Shown: positions 20,112-41,878 of the stretch, in pieces
Position numbering within the stretch: the stretch's first letter is position 1
How the letters are laid out: each line of letters starts with the position of its first letter
From: Brachybacterium saurashtrense
GTDB lineage: Bacteria > Actinomycetota > Actinomycetes > Actinomycetales > Dermabacteraceae
Direction of reading: 5' to 3'
NCBI RefSeq assembly: GCF_003355475.1
Contig: NZ_CP031356.1
Span: 2,790,001 to 2,854,000 of the forward strand
DNA length: 64,000 nt
The notes under the pieces: generated by a model
What the model was told of the DNA's origin: nothing
Seen by the model: only the letters and a program-made list of their open reading frames with translations
Databases searched by the model: none
Position numbers and translations under genes: made by a program

Positions 20112-20579
20112 TCACTTCTCGAGCGAGCCGTCGTAGGCGCAGATCGCGTCGACCTTCGCGGCGGAGCTGGAGGCGGGATCGAACTCGAGGTCCAGCCACA
20201 CCTTCACCAGCTCCTTCGCGAGCTCCAGCCCGATCACGCGCTCGCCCATGCACAGCACCTGCGCGTTGTTCGACAGCACCGAACGCTGCACCGAGTACAG
20301 ATCGTGCGCGGTGACGGCGCGGATCCCGGAGACCTTGTTCGCCGCGATCGCGACGCCGAGGCCCGTGCCGCAGATCAGCAACGCCCGGTCCGCCTCGCCG
20401 GCGGCGATCTTCTCCGCCGCCTCGACCGCGACGTTCGGGTAGTAGGTGCCGTCCTCGCGGCCGGTCACGCCCACGTCGAGGACCTGATCCACGCGGGGAT
20501 CGGCCTCGAGCAGCTCTGTCAGCGCGCTCTTGTGGCCGTACCCGGCGTTGTCGGATCCGGTGATGATTCGCCAGCCCAT
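20112..20579 (-). CDS. RpiB/LacAB-family sugar-phosphate isomerase (DerI-like)
   Basis: 155 residues. The RpiB signature LLICGTGLGVAIAANKVSGIRA (split here: LLICGTGLG then VAIAANKV) contains the catalytic Cys near residue 71, followed by THDLYSVQRSVLSNNAQVLCMG, which carries the phosphate-binding and ring-opening residues. RpiB relatives convert ribulose-5-P/ribose-5-P, but in tetritol loci a homologue (DerI) converts D-erythrulose-4-P to D-erythrose-4-P. Its position immediately downstream of a DhaK-type kinase favours the second role. The ATG at 20579 has GAAGGAG 8 bases upstream. It is the last gene of the permease-kinase-isomerase unit. Confidence 0.88.
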   Translation of the reverse strand: MGWRIITGSDNAGYGHKSALTELLEADPRVDQVLDVGVTGREDGTYYPNVAVEAAEKIAAGEADRALLICGTGLGVAIAANKVSGIRAVTAHDLYSVQRSVLSNNAQVLCMGERVIGLELAKELVKVWLDLEFDPASSSAAKVDAICAYDGSLEK

Positions 20580-20695: not shown

Positions 20696-22429
20696 TCAGC
20701 CGGCCAGCTTCTCGCCGAGCAGGGTGACGATCTTCGAGAACGAGATCGCGCCGGGGTCCGGGGTGCCCACGGACTTGTCGCCGTGGTTGCGGGCCCGGCC
20801 CATGGTGGCGGCGATGTCGGCGGTGGCCTCGGCGGCCTCGACGGCGCGGGCGGCGGCGGTGGCCACCACGGTCGCGGCCGTCTCGGCGGGCCCGTCGGCG
20901 TCCGCTCCCCCGGCCTGGCTGAGCGCGATCGCCTCGCGGAAGGGCACCGCGGCGTCCACCATCGTCTTGTCGCCGGGCGTCGCCCCGCCCAGGCGCTCGA
21001 TCGCCTCGACCGCCTGCACCAGGCCGGTGAGCAGCTGGTCACCGGTCGCCGCGGCGTCGTCGGAGAAGGCGCTGCCCAGGCTGGTCAGGGCCGCGCCCCA
21101 GAGCGCGCCGGAGGTGCCACCGGCCTCGGCGGACCAGGCCGCGCCGGCCTGCACCAGCACCGTGCGGGCGCCGCCGTCGGCCGCGACCACGCGCTCGGCG
21201 GCGGCGCGGGCGGCCGTCGCCCCCAGCACCATGCCCTGGCCGTGGTCTCCGTCCCCGGCCACCTGGTCCATGCGACCCAGCTCCGGCTCCAGATCGCGCA
21301 GCAGCTCCTCGACTGCGCCCAGGTGGGCGAGGATCCGCTGCGCGGAGGCGCGGGAGTCCTCGGAGGCCTCCGGGATCGGGTCCTCGCCGGGGGTGTACAC
21401 CCCGTCCCGCTCCTCGCCGAGGTCGCCGCCCACGGTGCCGCCGCGGCGGAAGGCGGGGGCATCCGCCGGGGCGAGCCACAGCTGCTCCAGCTCCTCATCG
21501 AGCCGCATCACGGTGAGGGAGAGGCCGGCCATGTCGAGGCTGGTCACGTGCTCGCCCACCTCGGGGCGCACCACCGTCAGGCCCGCCTCGGCCAGGAGCT
21601 CGGCGCAGTGCTTCCACACCACGAACATCTCCTCGTACTTCACGGTGCCCAGGCCGTTCAGCACCACGGCCGCGCGCTCGGAATCGAGCTCCGGGGTCTC
21701 CGCGAGCACGCCGTCCACCAGCACCTTCGCGAGCTCCTTCGCGCTCGGCATGGGCTGCTCGTCGATGCCGGGCTCGCCGTGGATGCCCAGGCCGATCGCC
21801 ATCCGCCCCTCGGGGACGTGGAACAGGGCGTCCTCGGCGCCGGGCAGGGTGCAGCCGTCGAAGGCCACGCCGAGCGAGCGGGTGGCGTCGTTCGCCTTCC
21901 AGGTGAGGCGCTCGGCCTCGGCGAGGTCGGCACCGGCCTGGATCGCGGCGCCGGCGATCTTGAACACCGGCAGGTCGCCGGCGATCCCGCGGCGGTCGCG
22001 GTGCTCGCCCTTCGCGCCGGAGGCGACGTCATCGCTGACGGCGACGATGCGCACGTCGATCCCCTCGGCGCGCAGCTTCTCCGCGGCGACGCCGAAGTGG
22101 AGCACGTCCCCGGCGTAGTGGCCGAAGCCGAGGATCACGCCGCCGCCGTTCTCGGCGTTCTTCGCCACCGAGTACACCTGGTCGGAGGACGGCGAGGAAA
22201 AGATGTTCCCGCACGGGGCGCCGTGCGCGAAGCCGGGGCCCACCCAGCCGGCGAAGGCCGGGTAGTGGCCGGAGCCGCCGCCGACGACGAGCGCGGGCTG
22301 CCCGGCCGGGGTGCGTCGGGCGCGCACCACGCCGCCGTGCACGCGCAGCAGCCCCTCGGGGTGCGCGGCCACGAGCCCCTCCACGGCGTCATGGGGGAAG
22401 GTCTTCGGATCGTCGAACAGATAGGTCAC
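20696..22429 (-). CDS. Dihydroxyacetone kinase family protein (DhaK-DhaL fusion; erythrulose kinase candidate)
   Basis: 577 residues, ATP-dependent ketose kinase. The DhaK domain (1-~330) has GGGSGHYPAFAGWVG, AGDVLHFGVA and GLGIHGEPG, the last holding the His that forms a hemiaminal with the keto substrate. The DhaL domain (~380-577) has the Mg-ADP loop GDGDHGQGM, GGTSGALWG, GDKTMVDA and GRARNHGDKSVGTPDPGA. Both halves look active. The start is GTG at 22429 behind GAGAAGAGAG. Neighbouring EltD-like dehydrogenase and DerI-like isomerase make D- or L-erythrulose a more likely substrate than dihydroxyacetone, as in the Mycobacterium smegmatis DerK/LerK kinases. Confidence 0.92.
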   Translation of the reverse strand: MTYLFDDPKTFPHDAVEGLVAAHPEGLLRVHGGVVRARRTPAGQPALVVGGGSGHYPAFAGWVGPGFAHGAPCGNIFSSPSSDQVYSVAKNAENGGGVILGFGHYAGDVLHFGVAAEKLRAEGIDVRIVAVSDDVASGAKGEHRDRRGIAGDLPVFKIAGAAIQAGADLAEAERLTWKANDATRSLGVAFDGCTLPGAEDALFHVPEGRMAIGLGIHGEPGIDEQPMPSAKELAKVLVDGVLAETPELDSERAAVVLNGLGTVKYEEMFVVWKHCAELLAEAGLTVVRPEVGEHVTSLDMAGLSLTVMRLDEELEQLWLAPADAPAFRRGGTVGGDLGEERDGVYTPGEDPIPEASEDSRASAQRILAHLGAVEELLRDLEPELGRMDQVAGDGDHGQGMVLGATAARAAAERVVAADGGARTVLVQAGAAWSAEAGGTSGALWGAALTSLGSAFSDDAAATGDQLLTGLVQAVEAIERLGGATPGDKTMVDAAVPFREAIALSQAGGADADGPAETAATVVATAAARAVEAAEATADIAATMGRARNHGDKSVGTPDPGAISFSKIVTLLGEKLAG

Positions 22430-22547: not shown

Positions 22548-23894
22548 TCAGGCGTCCACGTGGATGTCCTTCTTCCCCACGCGGGGCTGCTCGACCGTCA
22601 GCGCGAAGGTCATGAGGAACGCGAGCCCGTACAGGGCCACGAACGCCCACACCACGCCCACGTCCCCGCCCCAGGGACGCACCACGGCGACCACGGCGGA
22701 GCCCAGGAACGTCGCGCCGCCCGCGGCGGTGGTGTACATCGCCATCGCGGCACCCTTGTGGGCGGGGGCGAGCGCGGGCATGATCGCGCCGAGCGGCACG
22801 AACCCTGCCAGCAGGATGCCGAACACGGTGCCGGCGACCACCGCGACCACGAAGCCCCAGTCGGAGCCGGCCGGCACCCAGTGCGGCACGTACCACCACA
22901 GCAGCAGGCCGAGCGCGGAGCCGACGATGCCGAACCAGCGCACCGTGGTGGTCCAGCCGATGCGGTCGCCGAGGGCGCCGAAGGCGGCGTTGAACAGGAT
23001 GTTCCCGGCGAAGATCACCGAGGTCATCAGCAGCCAGCGGGACTGGCCCCAGCCCAGGGTCTCGGCGATCACGGTGGGCAGGATGATGAACATGCCGAAC
23101 TGCGGGGCGGTGTTGATCAGGCGGGTCAGGAAGCCCATCATCACGCGCCGGTTGGTCAGCGCCAGGCGCACGCCCGAGAGGATCACCTGGGAGGAGGACT
23201 CGCCCGCCGGGGCGAGGCGGCGGTCGCCGTGCTCCTCCCGCACGCCCAGGCGGGCGATGAGGAAGCCGGCGATCACGATCGCGGTGGAGGCCACCATCGC
23301 CCAGCGCTCGCCGAAGAACCCGCCGCCGAAGGCGGGGATCAGGCCGATCGCGACCAGCGAGCCGAGGGTGGGCATGCCGCCGGTGAACATCACGTAGAAC
23401 CAGCCCACGGCCGCGCCGTTGCGCTCCTTGGGCACCACGGCGTTGACCCACACCAGGAACGAGAAGGCGAACAGCGGGAAGCCGAAGCCGCGCATCAGGT
23501 AGGCGCCGAAGATGAGGGCGATCGAGCCGGTGGCGAGCGCGGCGACGAACGCGGCCTGGAACACCACCCACACCACCACGCCCAGCAGCATCACGCGGCG
23601 CGGACCCCACAGGTCCGAGAGGGCGCCGGCGAGGTAGGAGCCCACCAGCGCCGCCAGCGAGTAGACGGTGATGACGGTGGCGGCGAGGTTGATCATCGCG
23701 TCGCCGCCGCCGAACACGTTCGCGATGTGCGGGGAGACGACGTTGGTCTCCACGCCGTTGCCGGTCATGAACACCAGCACGCCGAGGAACCCCCAGCGCA
23801 GGGGGTGCGGGATGCCGAGCCGGTCCAGGCGGGACTCCTGGGCGGTCCCGGCGGCGGGGATCTCGTCGGCGCGTGCCGTGGAGACAGGGGCCAT
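22548..23894 (-). CDS. MFS permease of the polyol permease family
   Basis: 448 residues, 12 predicted spans. The first span, VLVFMTGNGVETNVVSPHI, matches the FMTGDGxE pattern of ribitol/arabinitol permeases (RbtT, DalT), and LAGALSDLWGPRR is the cytoplasmic MFS motif. It would import a polyol by proton symport, giving this locus a second uptake route beside the ABC system. The ATG at 23894 has GAAGGAG 8 bases upstream. It is first in the unit permease-kinase-isomerase, and its promoter carries the operator at 23999-24025. Confidence 0.9.
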   Translation of the reverse strand: MAPVSTARADEIPAAGTAQESRLDRLGIPHPLRWGFLGVLVFMTGNGVETNVVSPHIANVFGGGDAMINLAATVITVYSLAALVGSYLAGALSDLWGPRRVMLLGVVVWVVFQAAFVAALATGSIALIFGAYLMRGFGFPLFAFSFLVWVNAVVPKERNGAAVGWFYVMFTGGMPTLGSLVAIGLIPAFGGGFFGERWAMVASTAIVIAGFLIARLGVREEHGDRRLAPAGESSSQVILSGVRLALTNRRVMMGFLTRLINTAPQFGMFIILPTVIAETLGWGQSRWLLMTSVIFAGNILFNAAFGALGDRIGWTTTVRWFGIVGSALGLLLWWYVPHWVPAGSDWGFVVAVVAGTVFGILLAGFVPLGAIMPALAPAHKGAAMAMYTTAAGGATFLGSAVVAVVRPWGGDVGVVWAFVALYGLAFLMTFALTVEQPRVGKKDIHVDA

Positions 23895-23983: not shown

Positions 23984-24025
23984 ACCCTAGACCGCGCGAG
24001 AACATTCGTCAAGCACAAATGTTCT
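23984..24025 (-). promoter_or_regulatory. SorC-type operator overlapping the polyol permease promoter
   Basis: A perfect 8-bp inverted repeat (AGAACATT at 23999-24006, AATGTTCT at 24018-24025) encloses the 11-bp spacer CGTCAAGCACA. On the minus strand the spacer contains TTGACG (24012-24007), followed after 17 bases by TAGGGT (23989-23984), a good sigma-70-type promoter. A bound regulator would cover the -35 box. The same arrangement occurs at 30445-30486. Confidence 0.85.
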
Positions 24026-24046
24026 GCGGGTTCCCGCCGACGATCG

Positions 24047-24080
24047 GCGCGGGCGGGGCCCGGAGCTCCCCCGCCCGCGC
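24047..24080 (-). terminator. Terminator hairpin after the tetritol ABC binding protein
   Basis: A perfect 12-bp GC stem (GCGCGGGCGGGG / CCCCGCCCGCGC) with a 10-base loop starts 8 bases after the stop of the binding-protein gene. It separates the ABC operon from the downstream permease promoter. Confidence 0.75.
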
Positions 24081-24087
24081 CCGCCCC

Positions 24088-25080
24088 TCACTCGGTGTAG
24101 GTGAAGGGCGCCGTCATCTTGTCGACGTTCTCCTCGGTGATCAGCAGGCAGTCCAGCGCCTGCTTCTCCTGCTCCGGCTCGGTGCCGTTGCGCAGGAAGT
24201 CGTCCGCCATCTCGATCACGAGCTCCGCGAACTGCGCCACCGGCTGCAGCACCGTGTAGGCGAGCTCGCCGTTGCGGATCGCCTCCACGGCGTCCGGCGA
24301 GCCGTCGAAGCCGCCCACGACGATGTCCTCGAGCACCCCGGCCTCCTTGAAGGCGGCGATCGCGCCGAGCGCCATCTCGTCGTTGCCGGAGATCAGGCCC
24401 TGCATGTCCGGATGGGCCTGCAGCAGGGACTGCGCCTTGTCGTGCCCCTTGGTGCGGTCCCAGTCCGCCACCTCCTCGCCGAGCTTCTCGAGGTCCGGGT
24501 ACTGGCTGATGGTGGTGGTGTAGCCGTTGGAGCGGGTCTGGGCGTTGTTGTCCGAGGGCAGCCCGAACAGCTCCACGTAGGTGCCCTTCTCCTCCATCCG
24601 CGACACCCACTCCTGGGCACCGAGCGCGGCGCCCTGGGCGTTGTTGGAGACCAGCTGCGCCTTCGCGACGCCGGATTCGTTGATCTCCGCGTTGATGAGG
24701 AAGACGGGGATGTCCGCCTGGATCGCCTTTTTGATCGTGCCGATGGAGCCGTCGGCGTTGGCGGGATCCATGATCAGCGCGACCGACTGGTTCGAGATCG
24801 CGGTGTCCACCAGGGTGTTCTCGGTGTTGGTGTCGCCCTTGTGGGCGCCCACGGTGGTGGTGTAGCCGAGCTCCTCTGCCTTGGCGGCGGCGACGTCGCC
24901 CTCCGTCTTCCAGTACGGGTTGGAGGGGTCGTTGACGATGATCGTGATGAGGCCGCCGTCCACGCCGCCGCCCTCACCTCCGGCATCGCTGGCCCCGCCG
25001 TCGGAGGTTCCGCCGCACGCGGCGAGACCGGCGGCCGCGGCGCCGAGGCCGAGGGCGGAGAGGAAGTGCCTGCGTTCCAT
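24088..25080 (-). CDS. Ribose-type ABC transporter substrate-binding lipoprotein
   Basis: 330 residues. The ATG at 25080 (AAAGGA 7 bases upstream) gives a compact signal peptide MERRHFLSALGLG ending in lipobox LAAC; an upstream in-frame start adds nothing useful. The mature protein is a periplasmic-binding-protein type 4 (RbsB) fold, with DPSNPYWKTEGD near residue 52, MDPANADGS near 105, SGNDEMALGAIAAFKEAG near 230 and GGFDGSPDAVEAIRNGE near 255. Members of this group bind small sugars and polyols, and the flanking enzymes point to erythritol or threitol. It is last in its operon. Confidence 0.92.
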   Translation of the reverse strand: MERRHFLSALGLGAAAAGLAACGGTSDGGASDAGGEGGGVDGGLITIIVNDPSNPYWKTEGDVAAAKAEELGYTTTVGAHKGDTNTENTLVDTAISNQSVALIMDPANADGSIGTIKKAIQADIPVFLINAEINESGVAKAQLVSNNAQGAALGAQEWVSRMEEKGTYVELFGLPSDNNAQTRSNGYTTTISQYPDLEKLGEEVADWDRTKGHDKAQSLLQAHPDMQGLISGNDEMALGAIAAFKEAGVLEDIVVGGFDGSPDAVEAIRNGELAYTVLQPVAQFAELVIEMADDFLRNGTEPEQEKQALDCLLITEENVDKMTAPFTYTE

Positions 25081-25233
25081 GGGTGTTCCTTTCATCGGGA
25101 TGCTCTCCGGGGAGCGCATCGTGCTGGGCCGGAGGGTCCGGCAGCGGGATCGGGGGGGTGGGTGCGGTCAGTGCATCGGGTGCGGTCAGCGGGGTCGGTC
25201 CCGGGGTTCGGGGCCGACGGACGGGTGCGCCGG

Positions 25234-26478
25234 TCAGGAGCGCTCCTCGGGGGACGGCGAGCCGTCGGCGGCCGACGGCGACGTCGCCGGGCCCTGTCCC
25301 GTCGACGCGCCCTGTCCCGTCGGCGCGGCGTCCCCGTCGGACCCCGCCGCCGGGGCCTTCCCGGCGTTCGCGCGGGCCCGTCGGCGCGGGCCGCCGTACT
25401 GCAGGGAGTTGAGCATCACGGCCACCACGATCACGGCGCCGATGAACACGGTCTGCCAGTAGGCGGAGACGCCCACCAGCACCAGGCCGTCGGAGAGGAA
25501 GCCGATCACGAAGGCGCCCAGCAGGGTGCCGCGCACGGTGCCGCGACCGCCGGCGAGCGCCGCGCCGCCGATCACCACGCCCGCGATGGCGGTGAGCTCG
25601 TAGGTGTTGCCCGCGGTGGGGCTGGCGCTGGTGAGGGTGGAGGCGAGGATGACGCCCGCGATCGCGGAGCAGAGGCCGGAGACCACGTACACCCACACGG
25701 TCACGCGCCGCACCGGCACGCCGGAGAGCTCGGCCGCGCGGGCGTTGCCGCCGGTGGCGTAGAGCCAGCGCCCGAAGGTGGTGCGCGCCAGCACCAGGGC
25801 CAGCACCAGCGCCACCGCGGCCATGATCAGCACGCCGGCGGGGATGCCGAGGATGCGCTGGAAGCCAAGCCATTCGAAGCCGGTGTTGCCCAGGCCCTCG
25901 GTGCCGGAGAGGTCGTTGATGGTGCGTCCGTTGGTCATCAGCAGCGCCGCGCCGCGCACCACGTAGAGCATGCCCAGGGTGGCCACGAACGGCGCCACGT
26001 TGAACCGCGCCACCAGCACGCCGTTGAGCGCCCCGATGAGGCCGCCGAGCCCGACGGACAGCAGCACCGCCACGGGCACGCTCGGGTAGAGCGTCACGCC
26101 GAAGATGTCCAGCGGGACGCCGCGCAGCAGGAAGCCGGCGATCACGGCGGAGAAGCCGAGGGTGGAGCCCACCGAGAGGTCGATCCCGCCGGTGAGCACC
26201 ACCAGCAGCATCCCCATCGACAGCAGCGCGAAGATCGCGACGTGCGAGGTCATGATCAGCAGGTTGTCCACGGTGAGGAAGTTCGGGGACAGCAGGGAGA
26301 ACACCACGATGATCAGGGCGAGGGCGAGGAAGGCGCGGCCCTCGATGAGCAGCGTGGACAGGTCGAGCCGCCTCCGGCCGGCGCCGGAGCCCCCGGAGCC
26401 GGGCCCTTCTGCGCCGGGTCCGCGGGGGCCCGTGGCGGCGGTGGTGGTCGTGGCGGTGTCTGCGGTGGTGGAAGCCAT
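25234..26478 (-). CDS. Ribose-type ABC transporter permease
   Basis: 414 residues with the RbsC-family pattern: NLLIMTSHVAIFALLSMGMLLVVLTGGIDLSVG (LTGGIDLSVG is diagnostic), NVAPFVATLGMLYVVRG, and an EAA-like loop before YVVSGLCSAIAGVI. A ~35-residue Thr/Gly-rich N-terminus and a ~45-residue Ala/Pro/Gly-rich C-terminal tail are cytoplasmic by inference and unusual in length. A homodimer would form the channel. The ATG at 26478 lies 24 bases downstream of the ATPase stop, so it is in the same operon. A 153-bp gap, containing two copies of GGGTGCGGTCAG, separates it from the binding-protein gene. Confidence 0.92.
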   Translation of the reverse strand: MASTTADTATTTTAATGPRGPGAEGPGSGGSGAGRRRLDLSTLLIEGRAFLALALIIVVFSLLSPNFLTVDNLLIMTSHVAIFALLSMGMLLVVLTGGIDLSVGSTLGFSAVIAGFLLRGVPLDIFGVTLYPSVPVAVLLSVGLGGLIGALNGVLVARFNVAPFVATLGMLYVVRGAALLMTNGRTINDLSGTEGLGNTGFEWLGFQRILGIPAGVLIMAAVALVLALVLARTTFGRWLYATGGNARAAELSGVPVRRVTVWVYVVSGLCSAIAGVILASTLTSASPTAGNTYELTAIAGVVIGGAALAGGRGTVRGTLLGAFVIGFLSDGLVLVGVSAYWQTVFIGAVIVVAVMLNSLQYGGPRRRARANAGKAPAAGSDGDAAPTGQGASTGQGPATSPSAADGSPSPEERS

Positions 26479-26502
26479 GGGAGTTCCGTTCGTGGGAGCG
26501 GG

Positions 26503-28023
26503 TCAGGAGGTGAGGACTTCGCCGGAGGCGGCCATGACGTCGGCCCGCGCGGCGTCCGGGCCGAACTCGGCGGAGACGCGGCCGCGGCGCAGCACCACGA
26601 TCCGGTGCGCGATGCTGAAGCACTCGTCGATCTCGGAGGTGGTGAACAGGACGGCCAGCCCCTGGCGGGCGTGCTCGGCGAGCAGGCCGAACACCTCGGC
26701 CTTCGCCCCGATGTCGATGCCGCGGCTGGGCTCGTCCAGGAGCATCACGGCCGGGTCGGTGGCCATCACCTTGCCGATGACGACCTTCTGCTGGTTGCCG
26801 CCGGAGAGCGAGCCGATGGGCGCCTCGGGGCCCGGGGCCTTGACGGTGACGTCCTGGATCAGGGAGGTGGCCAGGGCCTTCTCCCGGGGGCGGGAGAGCA
26901 GCCCGCGGCGCAGGAACCGGCGGATGCTGGCCAGGGTGAGGTTCTGGCCCACGGACATGGTCTGCACCAGGCCGTCGCGCTGGCGGTCCTCGGGGACCAG
27001 GCCCACGCCGCGGGCGATGCGTTCGCGGATCGACTCGGGGCCCAGCTCCTCGCCGTCCAGGAGGATGCGGCCGGAGGCGACGTCGCCGCGGCCGGCCACG
27101 GCCTCCAGCAGCTCGGTGCGCCCGGCGCCCATCAGGCCGTACAGGCACACGATCTCGCCGGCCCGCACCTGCAGCGAGAGCCCGTCGACGACGGCGCGCT
27201 CGGGGGTGTCGGGGTCGCGCACCACGAGGTCCTGCACCTCGAGCACCGGGGCGCCGAACTCGTGGCCCTCGGGCGGGGAGCCCAGGTCGAAGTTCTCCCC
27301 CACCATGTGGCGCACGATCCAGGCCAGGTCGATCTCGTCGCGGTCCCCGCGCGCGGTCATGGTGCCGTCGCGCAGCACCACGGCGTGGTCGGTGACCCGC
27401 AGCGCCTCCTCGAGGTGGTGGGAGATGTACACCAGGGAGACGCCGCGGGCGGTGAGCTCGTCGATGATCCCGAACAGCACCTCCACCTCGCGGGCGGCCA
27501 GGGCGGAGGTGGGCTCGTCCATGATGAGGATGCGGGCGTCGATGGAGAGCGCCCGGGCGATCTCGACGATCTGCTGCTGGCCCACCCGCAGGTCGCCGAC
27601 GGGGGTGGAGGGGTCCACGTCCAGCCGCATCTCCTGCAGCAGGGCGCGGGTCTGCCGGGCCTCCTCGGCGTAGTCCACGGCGCCGGCGCGGGTGATCTCG
27701 CGGCCCAGGAAGATGTTGTCGCGCACCGAGAGGTTCGGTGCGAGGCTCAGCTCCTGGTGGATGATCGCGATGCCGTGGTCGCGGGCGTCGTTGGTGGTCG
27801 CAAAGGAGACGTCCTCCCCGTCCAGCACGATCCGCCCGGAGGTGGGCTGCTCCACGCCGGAGAGGATCTTCATCAGCGTGGACTTCCCGGCGCCGTTCTC
27901 GCCGAACAGGGTGGTGACGGTGCCGCGGCGGATGTCGAAGTTGACGCCCTTGAGCGCGCGGGTGCCGCCGTAGGTCTTCACGATGTCCCGCGCCTGCAGG
28001 ATCACGCTCTCGTCGGTGTTCAT
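26503..28023 (-). CDS. Ribose-type ABC transporter ATP-binding protein (double ATPase)
   Basis: 506 residues with two ATPase halves, RbsA/XylG type. The first half has Walker A GENGAGKST, signature VGQQQIVEIARAL and Walker B LIMDEP. The second half has the usual degenerate P-loop GLMGAGRTEL, signature SGGNQQK and MLLDEPSRGIDIGAK. Only the first site is expected to be fully catalytic. The ATG at 28023 overlaps the DUF2291 stop (ATGA). It drives uptake through the adjacent permease. Confidence 0.93.
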   Translation of the reverse strand: MNTDESVILQARDIVKTYGGTRALKGVNFDIRRGTVTTLFGENGAGKSTLMKILSGVEQPTSGRIVLDGEDVSFATTNDARDHGIAIIHQELSLAPNLSVRDNIFLGREITRAGAVDYAEEARQTRALLQEMRLDVDPSTPVGDLRVGQQQIVEIARALSIDARILIMDEPTSALAAREVEVLFGIIDELTARGVSLVYISHHLEEALRVTDHAVVLRDGTMTARGDRDEIDLAWIVRHMVGENFDLGSPPEGHEFGAPVLEVQDLVVRDPDTPERAVVDGLSLQVRAGEIVCLYGLMGAGRTELLEAVAGRGDVASGRILLDGEELGPESIRERIARGVGLVPEDRQRDGLVQTMSVGQNLTLASIRRFLRRGLLSRPREKALATSLIQDVTVKAPGPEAPIGSLSGGNQQKVVIGKVMATDPAVMLLDEPSRGIDIGAKAEVFGLLAEHARQGLAVLFTTSEIDECFSIAHRIVVLRRGRVSAEFGPDAARADVMAASGEVLTS

Positions 28024-28727
28024 GAGACCTCCAGGGCCGAGGGCGTGATGAGCCAGCCCTCGGGGTTGACGAGGGTGAACGCCCCGGTGACGGTGACCGT
28101 CTGCCCCTCCAGGCCCTCGACGTCCACCGGGTCCAGCACCTGCGCCTTCATCTCCTCGTTGAGGGCGGCGCCGGCGTCCTGGAACTCGATCTGATTGGTG
28201 AACTGGCTGAAGTCGTACTCGCCGGTGGCGTCGCGCAGCTCGGTGCCGTTGATGGCGGGGCCGGTCTGCATCCGCACGGTGACGCCCTCCGGCATCCCGT
28301 CCACGGCGATCTCCACGATGCCGCCCTCGCCCTCCTCCACGGTGCCGGTGAACGTGGTGGAGAAGACGGGCTGACCGGCGGCGACCACCGCGTGCTCCTC
28401 GACGGCGGCGTCCTGATCGGCGGCGAGCGTCTCGGCGAGCTCGGGGGCGGGCACCGCGCGCTCGGCGATGCCCTTCTGCACGGCCGGGAACTGCTCGGCG
28501 CCGAAGGTGGCCTTGTCGAAGGCGCCGGGCCCCCCGGCCAGCTCGGCCTCCTGGCCCTGCGGCACCACCTTCGTGCCGAGCACCACCACGAGCAGGGCGA
28601 GCACGGTGAGGCCGATCGCGACCCAGCGCCCGATCGGGCGGGGGCGGTTCACGGCCCGGCGCGGGGAGGGGGCGGCGGGCGGTGCGGCGGAGGACTCGGG
28701 CGGTGCGGCGGCGGAGGCGGTGCTCAT
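28020..28727 (-). CDS. DUF2291 family membrane-anchored protein
   Basis: 235 residues. A ~30-residue cytoplasmic Ala/Pro-rich head is followed by one membrane span (WVAIGLTVLALLVVVLGTKVV, residues ~34-54) and an extracytoplasmic domain with paired segments such as GTELRDATGEYDFSQFTNQIEFQDAG. DUF2291 proteins typically accompany ribose-type polyol transporters; their role is not established, and an accessory role in binding-protein function is possible. It is the first gene of the ABC operon, coupled to the ATPase gene by an ATGA overlap. GAAGG lies about 5 bases before the ATG. Confidence 0.85.
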   Translation of the reverse strand: MSTASAAAPPESSAAPPAAPSPRRAVNRPRPIGRWVAIGLTVLALLVVVLGTKVVPQGQEAELAGGPGAFDKATFGAEQFPAVQKGIAERAVPAPELAETLAADQDAAVEEHAVVAAGQPVFSTTFTGTVEEGEGGIVEIAVDGMPEGVTVRMQTGPAINGTELRDATGEYDFSQFTNQIEFQDAGAALNEEMKAQVLDPVDVEGLEGQTVTVTGAFTLVNPEGWLITPSALEVS

Positions 28728-29269
28728 GGGGAACCTTCCTGTCGGGGCCCGCTGCGCGGATCACCTCGGGGGCGAGGCCGACGCCAGCGGCTGCGGGCAG
28801 TGCGGGAACGGGGTGCTGCGGAGGGCGGGAGTCCGAGGGGCGGGGGCGGGTGAGAGGCGAGGGCGGGCGAGGGACGATCGATGCGGCACACACGACGGCC
28901 GACGGCGACCGACGGTGGACGGCGGCGAGCGGCGGCGCCCGGCGGCGACCGGCGGCGACCGGCGGCTCTGCGCCGCGTGGTACGAAACGCGACCACCCGC
29001 GCAAGGCCCTTGCGCCCCTCCCCGACCAGCACTGATATCGAGGAAACTGAGAGGCCGACGGGCCTGCCGAGGAGGCGGTCGCCGACCACGCGGCGCCCGG
29101 GGACGCGAACCTCTCGCAGGTGACTCGCCCGCTACGGCGCGGGCGGTCGGCGCGAGGACGGCCGAGCCGGGGAACGGAGGGTCGCGACGATGCGCCACCC
29201 GCTCCCCCCGGGGCCGGAGGGTCCGGGGCACGGTGCGCGCTCAGCGCGCGCCGCGCCCCGCGGTGCGGC
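28728..29269. other. 542-bp intergenic region: leader of the tetritol ABC operon
   Basis: No convincing gene. It lies between the dehydrogenase stop and the DUF2291 start, both on the minus strand, so it must hold the ABC operon promoter unless the operon is read through. It contains a perfect 17-bp palindrome at 28999-29015 and a short GGCGGCGACC-rich simple-sequence stretch (28920-28970). Neither copy of the GAACAT operator nor a clear TTGAC -35 box is present here, unlike the two flanking transcription units. Confidence 0.6.
28999..29015. promoter_or_regulatory. 17-bp palindrome in the tetritol ABC operon leader
   Basis: GCGCAAGG-C-CCTTGCGC, perfect 8-bp arms around one base. It could be an operator distinct from the SorC-type sites, or part of a terminator for the upstream dehydrogenase gene; it has no T-tract on either side. 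Confidence 0.5.
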
Positions 29270-30358
29270 TCAGAGGCCGGGGACGATCGAGACCTTCACC
29301 GAGGCCCCCGCGGAGTCGGCGACCTGGTCCAGCGCCTTCTGCACGTCGCCGAGCCCGTACTGGTGGGTGCAGATCTCCTCCATCGGCAGCACCCCGGACT
29401 CGATGATCTTGATCGCGGCGGGCCAGCAGTTCGGCCCCAGGTGCGCGCCCAGGACGTCCAGCTCCTTGTCGTCGGAGATGATCGACCAGTCCACCGAGAC
29501 GTCGTCCTTGAACACCGAGTACTCCACGAAGGTGCCGAGCTTGCGCAGTAGGTTCAGGCCCTGGGCGACGGCGCTGGGATGGCCGGTGCACTCGATGTAC
29601 ACGTCGGCCCCGTAGCCGCCGGTCAGTCCGCGGATCTCCTCGTAGATGTCGACCTTCGAGGGGTTCAGGGTGAGATCCGCCCCGCACTTCTTCGCCAGAG
29701 CGAGCTTGTCGTCGTCGAAGTCGAGCGCGATCACCATCTTGGGCGACTTGTGTGCCGCGCCGATCACCGCGCCCAGGCCGATCGGGCCGCAGCCCGCCAC
29801 CACGACCACGTCGTCGAAGCCGAGGTTCGCGCGCTCCACGGCGTGCAGCGAGCAGGACAGCGGCTCCGAGAACGCCGCGTGGTGCGGGGGGAGGTCCTTG
29901 GAGACCTTGTGGGCCCGCGCGAGCGAGGGGACGATCATGTACTCGGCCATCGCGCCGTGGTAGCTCTTGAAGCCGAACATCGCGTGCGGCGCGCACATCC
30001 AGTACCAGCCGCGCTGGCAGTACATGCAGTCGCCGCAGGGGACGATCTGCTCGCACGCGATCCGGTCCCCCACCTCCACGCCGTGGTGGGCGAGGGCCTC
30101 GGGCGAGCCGGAGACCACCTCGCCCACGAGCTCGTGGCCCGGGGTGATGCCGGGCTGCACCCAGCGGTCGCGGTTCTCGTCGCCCCAGAACTTGGCGGCG
30201 CCGTGGTAGCACTTCAGGTCGCTCGCGCACACGCCCACGGCCTCCACCCGGAGCAGGAGCTCATCCGCCCCCGGCACGGGCACGGGGATCTCCTCCAGCC
30301 GGTAGTCCTTCGGCGCATGCATCACGACCGCCTTCATGGTCTCCGCGCTCTGCGTCAT
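29270..30358 (-). CDS. eltD: Zinc-dependent erythritol/L-threitol dehydrogenase
   Basis: 362-residue medium-chain dehydrogenase. Catalytic zinc ligands are in VGVCASD and GHELVGEV; the structural zinc loop is CGDCMYCQRGWYWMC with four Cys; the NAD(P) fold is VVVVAGCGPIGLG near residue 170. The overall pattern (YHGAAKFWGDE, GGYGADVYIECTGHPS, DDKELDVLGAHL) matches the EltD group that oxidises erythritol or L-threitol to L-erythrulose. Two ATGs compete: 30367 directly abuts GAAGGAG (no spacing), whereas 30358 is 9 bases from it, so 30358 is preferred. The gene sits behind the 30460-30486 operator. Confidence 0.88.
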   Translation of the reverse strand: MTQSAETMKAVVMHAPKDYRLEEIPVPVPGADELLLRVEAVGVCASDLKCYHGAAKFWGDENRDRWVQPGITPGHELVGEVVSGSPEALAHHGVEVGDRIACEQIVPCGDCMYCQRGWYWMCAPHAMFGFKSYHGAMAEYMIVPSLARAHKVSKDLPPHHAAFSEPLSCSLHAVERANLGFDDVVVVAGCGPIGLGAVIGAAHKSPKMVIALDFDDDKLALAKKCGADLTLNPSKVDIYEEIRGLTGGYGADVYIECTGHPSAVAQGLNLLRKLGTFVEYSVFKDDVSVDWSIISDDKELDVLGAHLGPNCWPAAIKIIESGVLPMEEICTHQYGLGDVQKALDQVADSAGASVKVSIVPGL

Positions 30359-30444
30359 CACACCCATCTCCTTCGCTGCGTTGCGGCCGCTTCACGGCAT
30401 CGACCCGGGCACCGGGCCCGAGCGGACTTCTCTGTCTGGCCGTG

Positions 30445-30486
30445 AGCGTAGCCACATCGGGAACATACGTCAAGCACATATGTTCC
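30445..30486 (-). promoter_or_regulatory. SorC-type operator overlapping the eltD promoter
   Basis: A perfect 8-bp inverted repeat (GGAACATA at 30460-30467, TATGTTCC at 30479-30486) encloses the same 11-bp spacer CGTCAAGCACA as at 23999-24025. On the minus strand this spacer supplies TTGACG (30473-30468), then a 17-base gap and TACGCT (30450-30445). The two sites differ only in the outer and inner base of each arm, with compensating changes, so the arms are under selection. Confidence 0.87.
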
Positions 30487-30529: not shown

Positions 30530-31465
30530 TCAGGAGTCGGCGAGCAGGGCCTCGGCCGTGGGCACGTCGGTGATCAGCGAGGTGAACATGCCGGTGCGGG
30601 CGCCGGCGCGGATGGAACCCGCCTTGGCGCGGCCCACCGCCAGCGCGATCGAGGTGGGGATGGCGCGCAGCTGCTCCACCGACGGCCGCACCAGGCGCTC
30701 CGCGCCCGGGTGGGTGATCATCCGCCCCTCGGCGTCGAAGAAGTGCAGGCAGACGTCCCCGATCGCACGGCGCAGATCAGGATCCTCCCGAGGCAGCACC
30801 GACGTGATCGCCTCGCGCTCCTCGAACGGCGCCCCCACCCCGGTGACCAGCACGCGCGCCCGATCCCACAGCTCGGTGATCGCGAGGAAGCTCGGATCGG
30901 CCTGCAGCGACTCCCAGAGGCTGGGGCTGGGCAGCGCCGGGGCGAAGATGAAGCGGGGCAGCGCCCCGGTGCGGTCGGCGAAGGCGCGGGCCGTCTCGTT
31001 GGTCTGGAAGCTGGGATCGAACTCCTGCTGCCCGCCCACCGTGGGCGCGACCACCACGCCGGGGAGGTCCGGCAGCCCGGGCACCTGGCTCACCGCATGG
31101 GTGGTGGTGCCGGAGGAGATCAGCAGCACCTCGCCCCGTCACAGGCCCAGGCCCGCGAGCTCCTCGCCCAGCAGCTCCCCCAGCCCGCGGTAGCCCCGCT
31201 GCACCTGATCGCCCGGGGCGATGCGCACCGCCTCGAGCCCCAGCAGCTCCCGCACCTGCGCGGCCAGCTCGCCGAGGTCCACACTGGGCACGTCCAGCAC
31301 CTCGAAGCGCACCATCCCGATGCGACGCGCCTCCGCGAGGAGCTTGCTCACCGAGGGGCGCGAGACGCCCAGCAGCGAGGCCACCTCGGCCTGGCGCATG
31401 TCGTCGAGGTAGTACGCGGTGGCGGCGCGGTGCAGCTGCTGCATGTCCATCGACGTCTCCAGCAT
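30530..31465 (-). pseudogene. SorC/DeoR-type sugar-binding regulator interrupted by an in-frame TGA
   Basis: Read through, the frame gives a 310-residue SorC-family regulator: HTH MRQAEVASLLGVSRPSVSKLL near residues 22-42, then a sugar-phosphate-binding domain (VLLISSGTTTHAVSQVPGLP, TGMFTSLITD). The ATG at 31465 has GGAGGAG 5 bases upstream. After GLGL the codon at 31141-31139 is TGA, and the same frame resumes as RGEVLLISSG with full family similarity and no other defect. A CGA-to-TGA change would explain it. Possibilities are a true nonsense mutation, a sequencing error, or UGA readthrough; a GTG at 31129 could give a separate C-terminal piece. As written, the product would be a 108-residue DNA-binding fragment. 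Confidence 0.85.
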
Positions 31466-31497: not shown

Positions 31498-31511
31498 AGA
31501 ACAATAGTTCC
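31498..31511. promoter_or_regulatory. Possible autoregulatory GAAC/GTTC site
   Basis: AGAAC-AATA-GTTCC lies between the divergent SorC regulator and FGGY kinase genes. The half-sites resemble the arms of the two 27-bp operators (GAAC and GTTC), but with a 4-base instead of a long spacer, so this is only a weak candidate. Confidence 0.3.
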
Positions 31512-40763: not shown

Positions 40764-40892
40764 TGGCTGCTCCTTCGCATCGACGCCTGCTGGTCCCGAC
40801 CTGACCCGCGGAGAGGCGGCGCATGCGGCGCGACGCCCTGCCGGGGTGATCGGCGCCATCCTCGAACGGCGTGCACTGGATCGCAAGCCGGG

Positions 40893-40906
40893 TGCACGAA
40901 CGTGCA
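40893..40906. promoter_or_regulatory. Candidate operator between glpD and its SorC regulator
   Basis: Inverted repeat TGCAC-GAAC-GTGCA. On the minus strand its right arm forms TTGCAC, a plausible -35 box followed 16 bases later by TGCGAT for glpD. As at the tetritol promoters, regulator binding would block the -35 element. It lies 13 bases before the regulator GTG, so it could also control the regulator itself. Confidence 0.6.
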
Positions 40907-40918
40907 AGACTAGTGTCC

Positions 40919-41878
40919 GTGAGCCACGATTCCCGCCTCCAGGACCTCTACTCCGTTGCACGGATGTACTACGAGGAGGGGCAGACGATGGAGGCGATCG
41001 CCGGGAAGCTCGCCGTCTCCCGCTCCACCGTCTCGCGCATGCTGCGCGATGCACGGGACGCCGAGCTGGTGCGGATCTCGCTGCGCCCGCCGGAGGCGCA
41101 GCGGATCGAGGAGCTGGGACGCCGCATCGCCCGCCAGTACGGGGTGCAGGCGCACGTGGTGCCCGCCTCCCCCGGCGACGACCAGCGCGCCCGCCTCCGC
41201 ACCGTCGCCGAGACCAGCGGCGAGCTGCTGGACGAGATGCTCGAGCCCGGCTCCACGCTCGGCATCGCCTGGGGCACCACGATCGCGGAGCTGCTCAGCA
41301 CGATCCGCTCCCGCCCGGTGCCCGGCCTGCGGATCGTGCAGCTCAACGGCGCGATCAACGTCGAGGGCTCGGGCCTGGCCTACATCTCGGCAGTGCTGGC
41401 AAGGGCCGCCACGCGCTGGGACGCCACGGTGCACCAGTTCCCGGTGCCCGCGTTCTTCGACTTCCCCGGCACCCGCGAGGCGATGTGGCGGGAGCGCTCG
41501 GTGCAGCGGGTGCTGGCCGTGCAGCGCGAGGCCACGGTCGCCGTGTTCAGCGTGGGCGCGTTCGATGCGGAGGTGCCCAGCCACGTCTACACCCACAACT
41601 ACCTCACCGGCGCGGATCTGCGCTCGCTGAGGGCCGACGGGGCGGTGGGGGACGTGTGCACCGTGTTCCTGCGCGCCGACGGCACTTACCGCGACATCGC
41701 GATGAACCAGCGCGGCTCGGGCACGCCGCCGGACCGCCTGCTGCGGATCCCCCGCCGGCTCCTGGTGGCCTCCGGCTCCCGCAAGGCGCTGCCGCTGCGG
41801 GCGGCGTTGAGGGCGGGCCTCGCCACCGACCTGGTGCTCGACGAGATCACGGCCTCGAGCCTGCTCGCCCTGCGGTGA
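40919..41878 (+). CDS. SorC/DeoR-family sugar-binding transcriptional regulator
   Basis: 319 residues, intact. The N-terminal HTH is TMEAIAGKLAVSRSTVSRML (residues ~21-40). The effector domain follows, with LGIAWGTTIAELLSTI near 115, LNGAINVEGSG near 140 and VGDVCTVFLRADGTYRDI near 240, the usual sugar-phosphate pocket of the SorC family. A GTG at 40913 is an alternative start; neither has a strong ribosome site, so the mRNA may be leaderless. The divergent position to glpD predicts control of the glycerol genes, with glycerol-3-phosphate or dihydroxyacetone phosphate as likely effector. Most bacteria use a DeoR-type GlpR or antiterminator GlpP instead. Confidence 0.88.
   Translation: MSHDSRLQDLYSVARMYYEEGQTMEAIAGKLAVSRSTVSRMLRDARDAELVRISLRPPEAQRIEELGRRIARQYGVQAHVVPASPGDDQRARLRTVAETSGELLDEMLEPGSTLGIAWGTTIAELLSTIRSRPVPGLRIVQLNGAINVEGSGLAYISAVLARAATRWDATVHQFPVPAFFDFPGTREAMWRERSVQRVLAVQREATVAVFSVGAFDAEVPSHVYTHNYLTGADLRSLRADGAVGDVCTVFLRADGTYRDIAMNQRGSGTPPDRLLRIPRRLLVASGSRKALPLRAALRAGLATDLVLDEITASSLLALR

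Follow-up and report, generated by a model that had tools for sequence, protein, structure and literature searches.

To our knowledge, few operators have been defined for regulators of the SorC family. EryD, the erythritol-pathway regulator of the Brucella ery operon, belongs to a SorC-type family, and the erythritol/threitol pathway that Huang and colleagues reportedly described in Mycobacterium smegmatis in 2015 is said to use a polyol dehydrogenase, a DhaK-type kinase and an RpiB-type isomerase. DeoR of Bacillus subtilis, which belongs to the same subfamily as the regulator considered here, binds as a tetramer, with the half-site TTGAACA and an operator that partly overlaps the promoter; the left half, upstream of the -35 element, is the clearer palindrome, and the authors propose a right half-site and remark on its departure from the conserved pattern (PMC11229326). 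In B. subtilis CggR, of the SorC/CggR subfamily, a dimer of dimers likewise occupies an operator with two palindromic halves, but CggR has another DNA-binding domain, a CGGGAC repeat with about 20 bp between repeats (our count), and a position at +32 to +77 (PMC11229326). Here we analyze two sites in a 64,000-nucleotide stretch of the Brachybacterium saurashtrense genome (hereafter the window) that look like genuine control sites, predicted for a small sugar-alcohol gene set. Each is better read from its sequence as two tandem 12-bp palindromic boxes, GMACANNTGTKC, with a 13-bp period and a 1-bp linker, and it is quite likely that each combines a promoter with an operator for the SorC/DeoR-subfamily regulator encoded nearby. 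Like the DeoR operator of dra-nupC-pdp as printed, the sites have a GAACA half-site, two boxes and an overlap with the promoter; unlike it, their boxes lie 13 bp apart rather than 22, outside a spacing of about 20-22 bp, and the pathway differs (PMC11229326).

The first-pass annotation of the window described two matched operators with a -35 box built into the spacer. The observation is confirmed, and chance does not account for it: the two 27-mers lie at 23999-24025 (AGAACATTCGTCAAGCACAAATGTTCT) and 30460-30486 (GGAACATACGTCAAGCACATATGTTCC), both with perfect 8-bp arms and a common 11-bp centre, and the minus strand reads TTGACG (24012-24007; 30473-30468) followed, 17 bases on, by TAGGGT (23989-23984) or TACGCT (30450-30445). 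The elements of the two predicted composites are as follows.

24000..24011, minus strand: site 1 promoter-proximal box, GAACATTCGTCA on the plus strand, with the outer half GAACA intact and the inner half replaced by -35 sequence
24013..24024, minus strand: site 1 distal box, GCACAAATGTTC, an exact GMACANNTGTKC
24007..24012, minus strand: site 1 -35 hexamer TTGACG of the predicted permease promoter
23984..23989, minus strand: site 1 -10 hexamer TAGGGT, 17 bp from the -35
30461..30472, minus strand: site 2 promoter-proximal box, GAACATACGTCA on the plus strand
30474..30485, minus strand: site 2 distal box, GCACATATGTTC, an exact GMACANNTGTKC
30468..30473, minus strand: site 2 -35 hexamer TTGACG of the predicted dehydrogenase promoter
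30445..30450, minus strand: site 2 -10 hexamer TACGCT, 17 bp from the -35

The window holds two exact copies of GMACANNTGTKC, which are the distal boxes of the two sites, and two exact matches to GAACAT-N13-ATGTTC, which are the sites themselves (at up to two mismatches, four matches against 0.21 expected). A scan of the whole 3.72-Mb genome with the 27-mer at up to three mismatches returned exactly these two places, and the reversed control returned none. As a standalone motif the 11-bp centre was at background (three genome matches, three in the control), and the short single box GAACANNNNGTTC was uninformative, with 25 matches at one mismatch scattered across the window against 3.52 expected. 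A perfect 12-bp palindrome, GCGGGTTCCCGC, abuts site 1 at 24026-24037; site 2 is without a counterpart.

In a sample of 38 genomes of the genus, the 27-mer at up to three mismatches is found at 39 places in 29 genomes, with no match for the reversed control. The dehydrogenase divides the sample identically, being present in those 29 genomes and not found at the cut-off in the other nine. A regulator orthologue occurs in 28, all of them site-bearing; in the remaining site-bearing genome, G032, the regulator is represented by a piece at a contig edge. All 39 sites precede either the dehydrogenase (25) or the permease (14), which supports the small local regulon, comprising the permease-kinase-isomerase unit and the dehydrogenase, that had been proposed from the window. 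A looser two-box pattern with one mismatch listed 51 places in the same 29 genomes, one of them away from the cluster (contig 16 of G028).

Across the 39 sites the columns ACA (4-6), GTCAAG (10-15), ACA (17-19), TGT (22-24) and C (26) are invariant, and variation falls at positions 16 (C/A), 25 (T/G) and 3 (A/C). This pattern reads as three GMACA half-sites and a fourth overwritten by CGTCA, and since CGTCAA is the reverse complement of TTGACG, one half of the box next to the promoter also serves as the -35 element. The 25-bp pattern GMACANNTGTKCTTGACNNNTGTKC fits upstream of all 29 dehydrogenase genes of the genus with 0-2 mismatches. When the best of the spacings from 16 to 18 was taken, each of the 29 dehydrogenase promoters of the genus, like all 15 site-bearing permease promoters, had TAnnnT 17 or 18 bp after TTGAC. 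The permease count includes G015 (locus L250, GAGCAGACGTCTTTGACGCCTGTTC), in which the operator is degraded and the -35 and -10 are retained. The 22-bp spacing of DeoR is not among the leading offsets listed for the promoters examined. We also considered recent copying of one promoter into the other, but in the 15 genomes compared the flanks of the two sites have 13-28 positions out of 60 in common, near chance for most, so recent duplication is not supported.

One alternative is the model of the first-pass annotation itself, a single 27-bp palindrome in which one dimer contacts the 8-bp arms and the spacer is fixed for the promoter only. The arms are indeed perfect in the window, and none of the 39 sites departs from ACA and TGT in the outer half-sites. 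However, two palindromes in tandem automatically yield a larger palindrome, and this is what the annotation saw. Its compensating arm changes do not extend to a general rule, as only two of the 39 sites in the 29 genomes have arms matching at 8/8 positions, both of them in the window, and no arm pair co-varies clearly against shuffled columns (smallest permutation fraction 0.12-0.14, for the outermost pair, over the 39 sites). Of its interpretation, the overlap of the operator with a sigma-70-type promoter is supported, and the upkeep of matching arms through compensating changes is not; in place of a spacer, the centre more plausibly consists of the inner half-sites of both tandem boxes, one merged with the -35. 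Inner half-sites survive where TTGAC is absent and third boxes continue the 13-bp period, as described below, and the single-palindrome model appears improbable.

In Rothia, Kocuria, Nesterenkonia and other genera, SorC/DeoR-subfamily orthologues with 36-50% identity are encoded next to these enzymes. Our comparison covered 79 regulator loci, made up of 27 outgroup loci (L174-L200), 32 more distant ones searched within 400 bp of the gene only, and 20 genus-like ones. The site is seen in 19 of the 20 genus-like loci, the exception (L171) ending 140 bases past the regulator match, and a tandem pair at up to three mismatches lies outside genes in 20 of the 27 outgroup loci. Boxes 13 bp apart, with two mismatches allowed in each, occur in 18 of 23 dehydrogenase promoters from the outgroup (shuffle mean 0.02), and a box with one mismatch or none occurs in 22 (shuffle mean 0.70). 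Upstream of the isomerase gene of L186 the tandem is perfect, with zero mismatches in both boxes; L198 and L199 have one mismatch in total upstream of the permease, and L192 has one upstream of the dehydrogenase. These four sites lack TTGAC and retain the inner half-sites, so that the boxes are complete there. Arrays of three boxes at the 13-bp period lie upstream of the dehydrogenase or permease in L041, L187, L188 and L195. Of the 32 distant SorC loci, seven gave any output in that 400-bp range. A draw of 396 genomes from across the order contained the 17-bp core in 24 (18 of the genus and six outside), and the reversed control gave five matches in four genomes, which puts the six outside genomes near background in number; five of the six cores nevertheless lie ahead of the same dehydrogenase, with a neighbouring SorC gene of 38-46% identity, and the sixth (L138) has neither a dehydrogenase nor a SorC gene nearby.

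The genes that would be served by the two sites are the following.

29270..30367, minus strand: zinc-dependent polyol-type dehydrogenase, the first gene behind site 2; the start may be 30337
24088..28727, minus strand: ABC cluster between dehydrogenase and permease, comprising a DUF2291 protein, an ABC ATPase, a permease and a ribose-type binding protein
22548..23894, minus strand: major facilitator superfamily (MFS) permease of the RbtT/DalT/CsbX family (TIGR00897, 464 bits, cut-off 375), the first gene behind site 1
20696..22429, minus strand: DhaK-DhaL fusion kinase of the dihydroxyacetone kinase family
20112..20576, minus strand: RpiB-type sugar-phosphate isomerase

Within the ABC cluster, the open reading frames (ORFs) of the DUF2291 and binding proteins were family-scanned and the two middle ORFs were named from their reading. 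No tandem box at up to four mismatches lies in front of the cluster, so it is probably read from site 2. The DUF2291 protein (28020-28727) heads the cluster and follows the dehydrogenase in 15 of the 29 genus genomes.

The arrangement of these genes was compared over 26 orthologous permease genes, the match in G013 (48% identical) being left out; G016, G029 and G030 have no permease at the cut-off. Eleven genomes have the permease 57-153 bp behind the dehydrogenase, in every case without a site of its own (best fit at least eight mismatches). In 13 genomes the permease is 4.9-5.4 kb from the dehydrogenase, with the DUF2291 gene after the dehydrogenase, and 12 of these carry a permease site at 0-1 mismatch and one (G015) at four. 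A permease thus has its own operator copy in 12 of the 13 genomes with an intervening ABC cluster against none of the 11 with adjacent genes, a pattern in which the regulon would be kept when the operon splits. In G005 the gap is 246 bp, the permease site is present and there is no ABC cluster, which this genome may have lost; in G031, where the permease and dehydrogenase fall on separate contigs, the permease has its site with one mismatch. Since dehydrogenase and permease are also direct neighbours in the relatives Kocuria polaris, Zhihengliuella, Isoptericola and Pseudonocardia, this order may be the ancestral one.

As expected of an erythritol/threitol gene set, the window combines a dehydrogenase with a DhaK-type kinase and an RpiB-type isomerase; with the permease they fit a putative tetritol route, the substrate being suggested by family models. 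The three types are those of the M. smegmatis pathway, but the isomerase here reaches 152.6 bits against the D-erythrulose-4-phosphate isomerase model NF051858, short of its cut-off of 240. Matches to solved structures were not decisive for the substrate: the kinase matches dihydroxyacetone kinases, the dehydrogenase matches threonine, ketose or sorbitol dehydrogenases, and the nearest binding proteins are named ribose-type.

Upstream of the dehydrogenase and site 2 are the regulator gene and a further candidate box.

30530..31465, minus strand: SorC/DeoR-subfamily regulator gene with an in-frame TGA at 31141-31139, in pieces 31465-31142 (helix-turn-helix, HTH) and 31129-30530 (sugar-binding domain)
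31499..31510, no strand assigned: single box, possibly autoregulatory, GAACAATAGTTC, one mismatch, between the SorC gene and a divergent FGGY kinase

The TGA falls at about codon 109, past the DNA-binding domain, so the frame is not intact, whereas the 15 other regulator loci examined have open frames and 28 of 29 matches are without an internal stop. The stop, whether real or an assembly error, is seen in a single assembly; if real, control in this strain may already be lost, and the interruption predicts that the genes are constitutive here. The C-terminal piece scores 114.7 bits against the sugar-binding family PF04198 (cut-off 27), the whole locus 132.1 bits with one TGA inside, and the N-terminal piece stays below the Pfam cut-off (HTH_Crp_2, 25.7 of 27). 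An intact orthologue (P0001) aligns to 8r7y through its HTH, which is thus of the DeoR type, and its best solved full-length relatives are DeoR (8r7y, E 4.6e-24) and SorC. The serine-arginine-proline of the recognition helix and R36 are invariant in 16 of 16 orthologues, and position 41 is K or R; by numbering, R36 and position 41 may correspond to DeoR R34 and R39. Against NF053881, the equivalog model of B. subtilis DeoR, the pieces score 54.4 and 50.9 bits for a cut-off of 420, as befits a relative that is not DeoR itself. Upstream regions of the regulator gene in the genus contain a box in 16 of 27 cases (shuffles 0.60) and boxes 13 bp apart in five of 27 (shuffles 0.04); the window gene has no second box upstream, while some relatives have two, 13 bp apart. 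The named relatives carrying the regulator are mostly Brachybacterium. The genome has four SorC-family genes, three without internal stops. One uninterrupted gene, at 40871-41878, has a perfect palindrome, TGCACGAACGTGCA, near its start (40893-40906), with a similar 12-bp layout and the half-site GCACG, and faces an ORF whose reading suggests a glycerol-3-phosphate dehydrogenase.

In the mechanism that we propose, the recognition unit would be the 12-bp palindrome GMACANNTGTKC, each bound by one dimer of DNA-binding domains, and two boxes at a 13-bp period could be filled by a dimer of dimers. The promoter would be built in the order distal box, TTGACG (the -35, doubling as the first half of the proximal box), NATGTTC, and a TAnnnT -10 at 17-18 bp. 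By analogy with DeoR, which supplies the tetramer, the repression and the kind of effector, the bound regulator would mask the -35 and keep RNA polymerase out, and it might be released by a phosphorylated pathway intermediate, perhaps a tetrulose phosphate. Site 2 would drive the dehydrogenase and, by read-through, the ABC cluster, and site 1 the permease-kinase-isomerase unit; the box upstream of the regulator gene suggests autoregulation.

Several observations weigh against this mechanism. All the evidence is computational, and the counts come from related species and are not independent events. The linked regulator is broken in the very genome in which the sites were noticed. The proximal box of the genus carries three mismatches, and because of this the two-box pair at a two-mismatch cut-off was detected in just one of 29 dehydrogenase promoters; the looser two-box search also gave three control matches in three genomes against its 51 places. 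The permease site of G015 is degraded to four mismatches, and 11 of 27 genus regulator upstream regions have no box at one mismatch. The candidate autoregulatory box is weak, as the window has eight boxes at up to one mismatch against 2.65 in shuffles. Among the 27 outgroup loci, five (L174, L180, L182, L183 and L185) have no site at the cut-offs used, and two (L176 and L193) have the core only, at two mismatches. In outgroup promoters of MFS permease, RpiB and dihydroxyacetone kinase genes, a 14-bp offset occurs in five of 59 against 13 bp in 11 of 59. Finally, a spacing of 13 rather than 22 bp means that the DeoR tetramer model is not directly transferable (PMC11229326, operator as printed).

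The remaining alternatives concern what binds and with what effect. Some members of the SorC family are activators, and were this one of them, the broken gene would silence the pathway; the intact distal box does lie upstream of the -35. Yet the boxes overlap the -35 and continue downstream of it, like those of the DeoR repressor (PMC11229326), and TTGAC with TAnnnT looks like an activator-independent promoter. Repression is therefore favoured, and activation is unlikely. A different regulator, either the intact paralogue at 40871-41878 or one of two others in the genome, could be invoked given that the linked SorC gene is broken and three of the four family members are free of stops. The sites, however, follow the linked orthologue through the genus and other families despite altered gene order (a comparison made for the linked gene alone), and the paralogue near 41 kb has the different palindrome TGCACGAACGTGCA by its start. 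The first-pass choice of the neighbouring SorC protein as the likely regulator is upheld by the orthologues beside these enzymes elsewhere, qualified by the stop in the gene of this genome, and a substitute regulator is very unlikely. That the sites are a conserved promoter with no operator, their repeats being by-products, would agree with the strong conservation of the promoter elements, but the distal box lies entirely upstream of the -35, most specified columns are invariant or nearly so over the 39 sites, and 25 bp are kept while the flanks of the two sites within one genome show the 13-28 matches in 60 given above, near chance for most; we see hardly any chance that this is the explanation. 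A repressor operator fused to its promoter is the reading that we retain.

The same fusion may bear on DeoR. The printed DeoR operator contains two boxes with two mismatches each, 22 bp apart, and two boxes arose in none of 2000 shuffles (PMC11229326). In our alignment of the printed sequence, TTTACATATGTTC of the DeoR operator is in register with TTGACGAATGTTC here, and the right box, TTACATATGTTC, directly after a T, gives TTTACA at the place of the -35 in our reading of the printed coordinates -60 to -21 (PMC11229326). The right half-site of DeoR might thus deviate because it is also a -35, which would be a possible reason for the degenerate right part of that operator. We tentatively advance, as a possibility somewhat short of even, that actinobacterial SorC/DeoR-subfamily repressors share a distinct grammar in which two or three adjoining 12-bp boxes follow one another with a 13-bp period and the promoter-proximal half-site is fused to the -35. 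The merger would also account for the poor right half-site of DeoR; the fusion would then go back far in the family, and the box spacing alone would have shifted, with 13 bp here and 22 bp in DeoR (PMC11229326, operator as printed). If so, the geometry of the tetramer on DNA would differ from that of DeoR. The operator proposed here for a SorC-family regulator is derived from comparative data alone, and its grammar is simple and testable. The listed literature matches do not name the operator in their titles or in the starts of their abstracts.

Other spacings occur at the margins of the comparison. The dehydrogenase promoter of the Pseudonocardia locus L182 contains GAACAGATGTGTTGACGAATGTTC, which reads as boxes 12 bp apart with no linker. 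In Chloroflexi, a pair of boxes at a 14-bp offset lies immediately upstream of each of two SorC genes of about 30% identity (L210 and L211).

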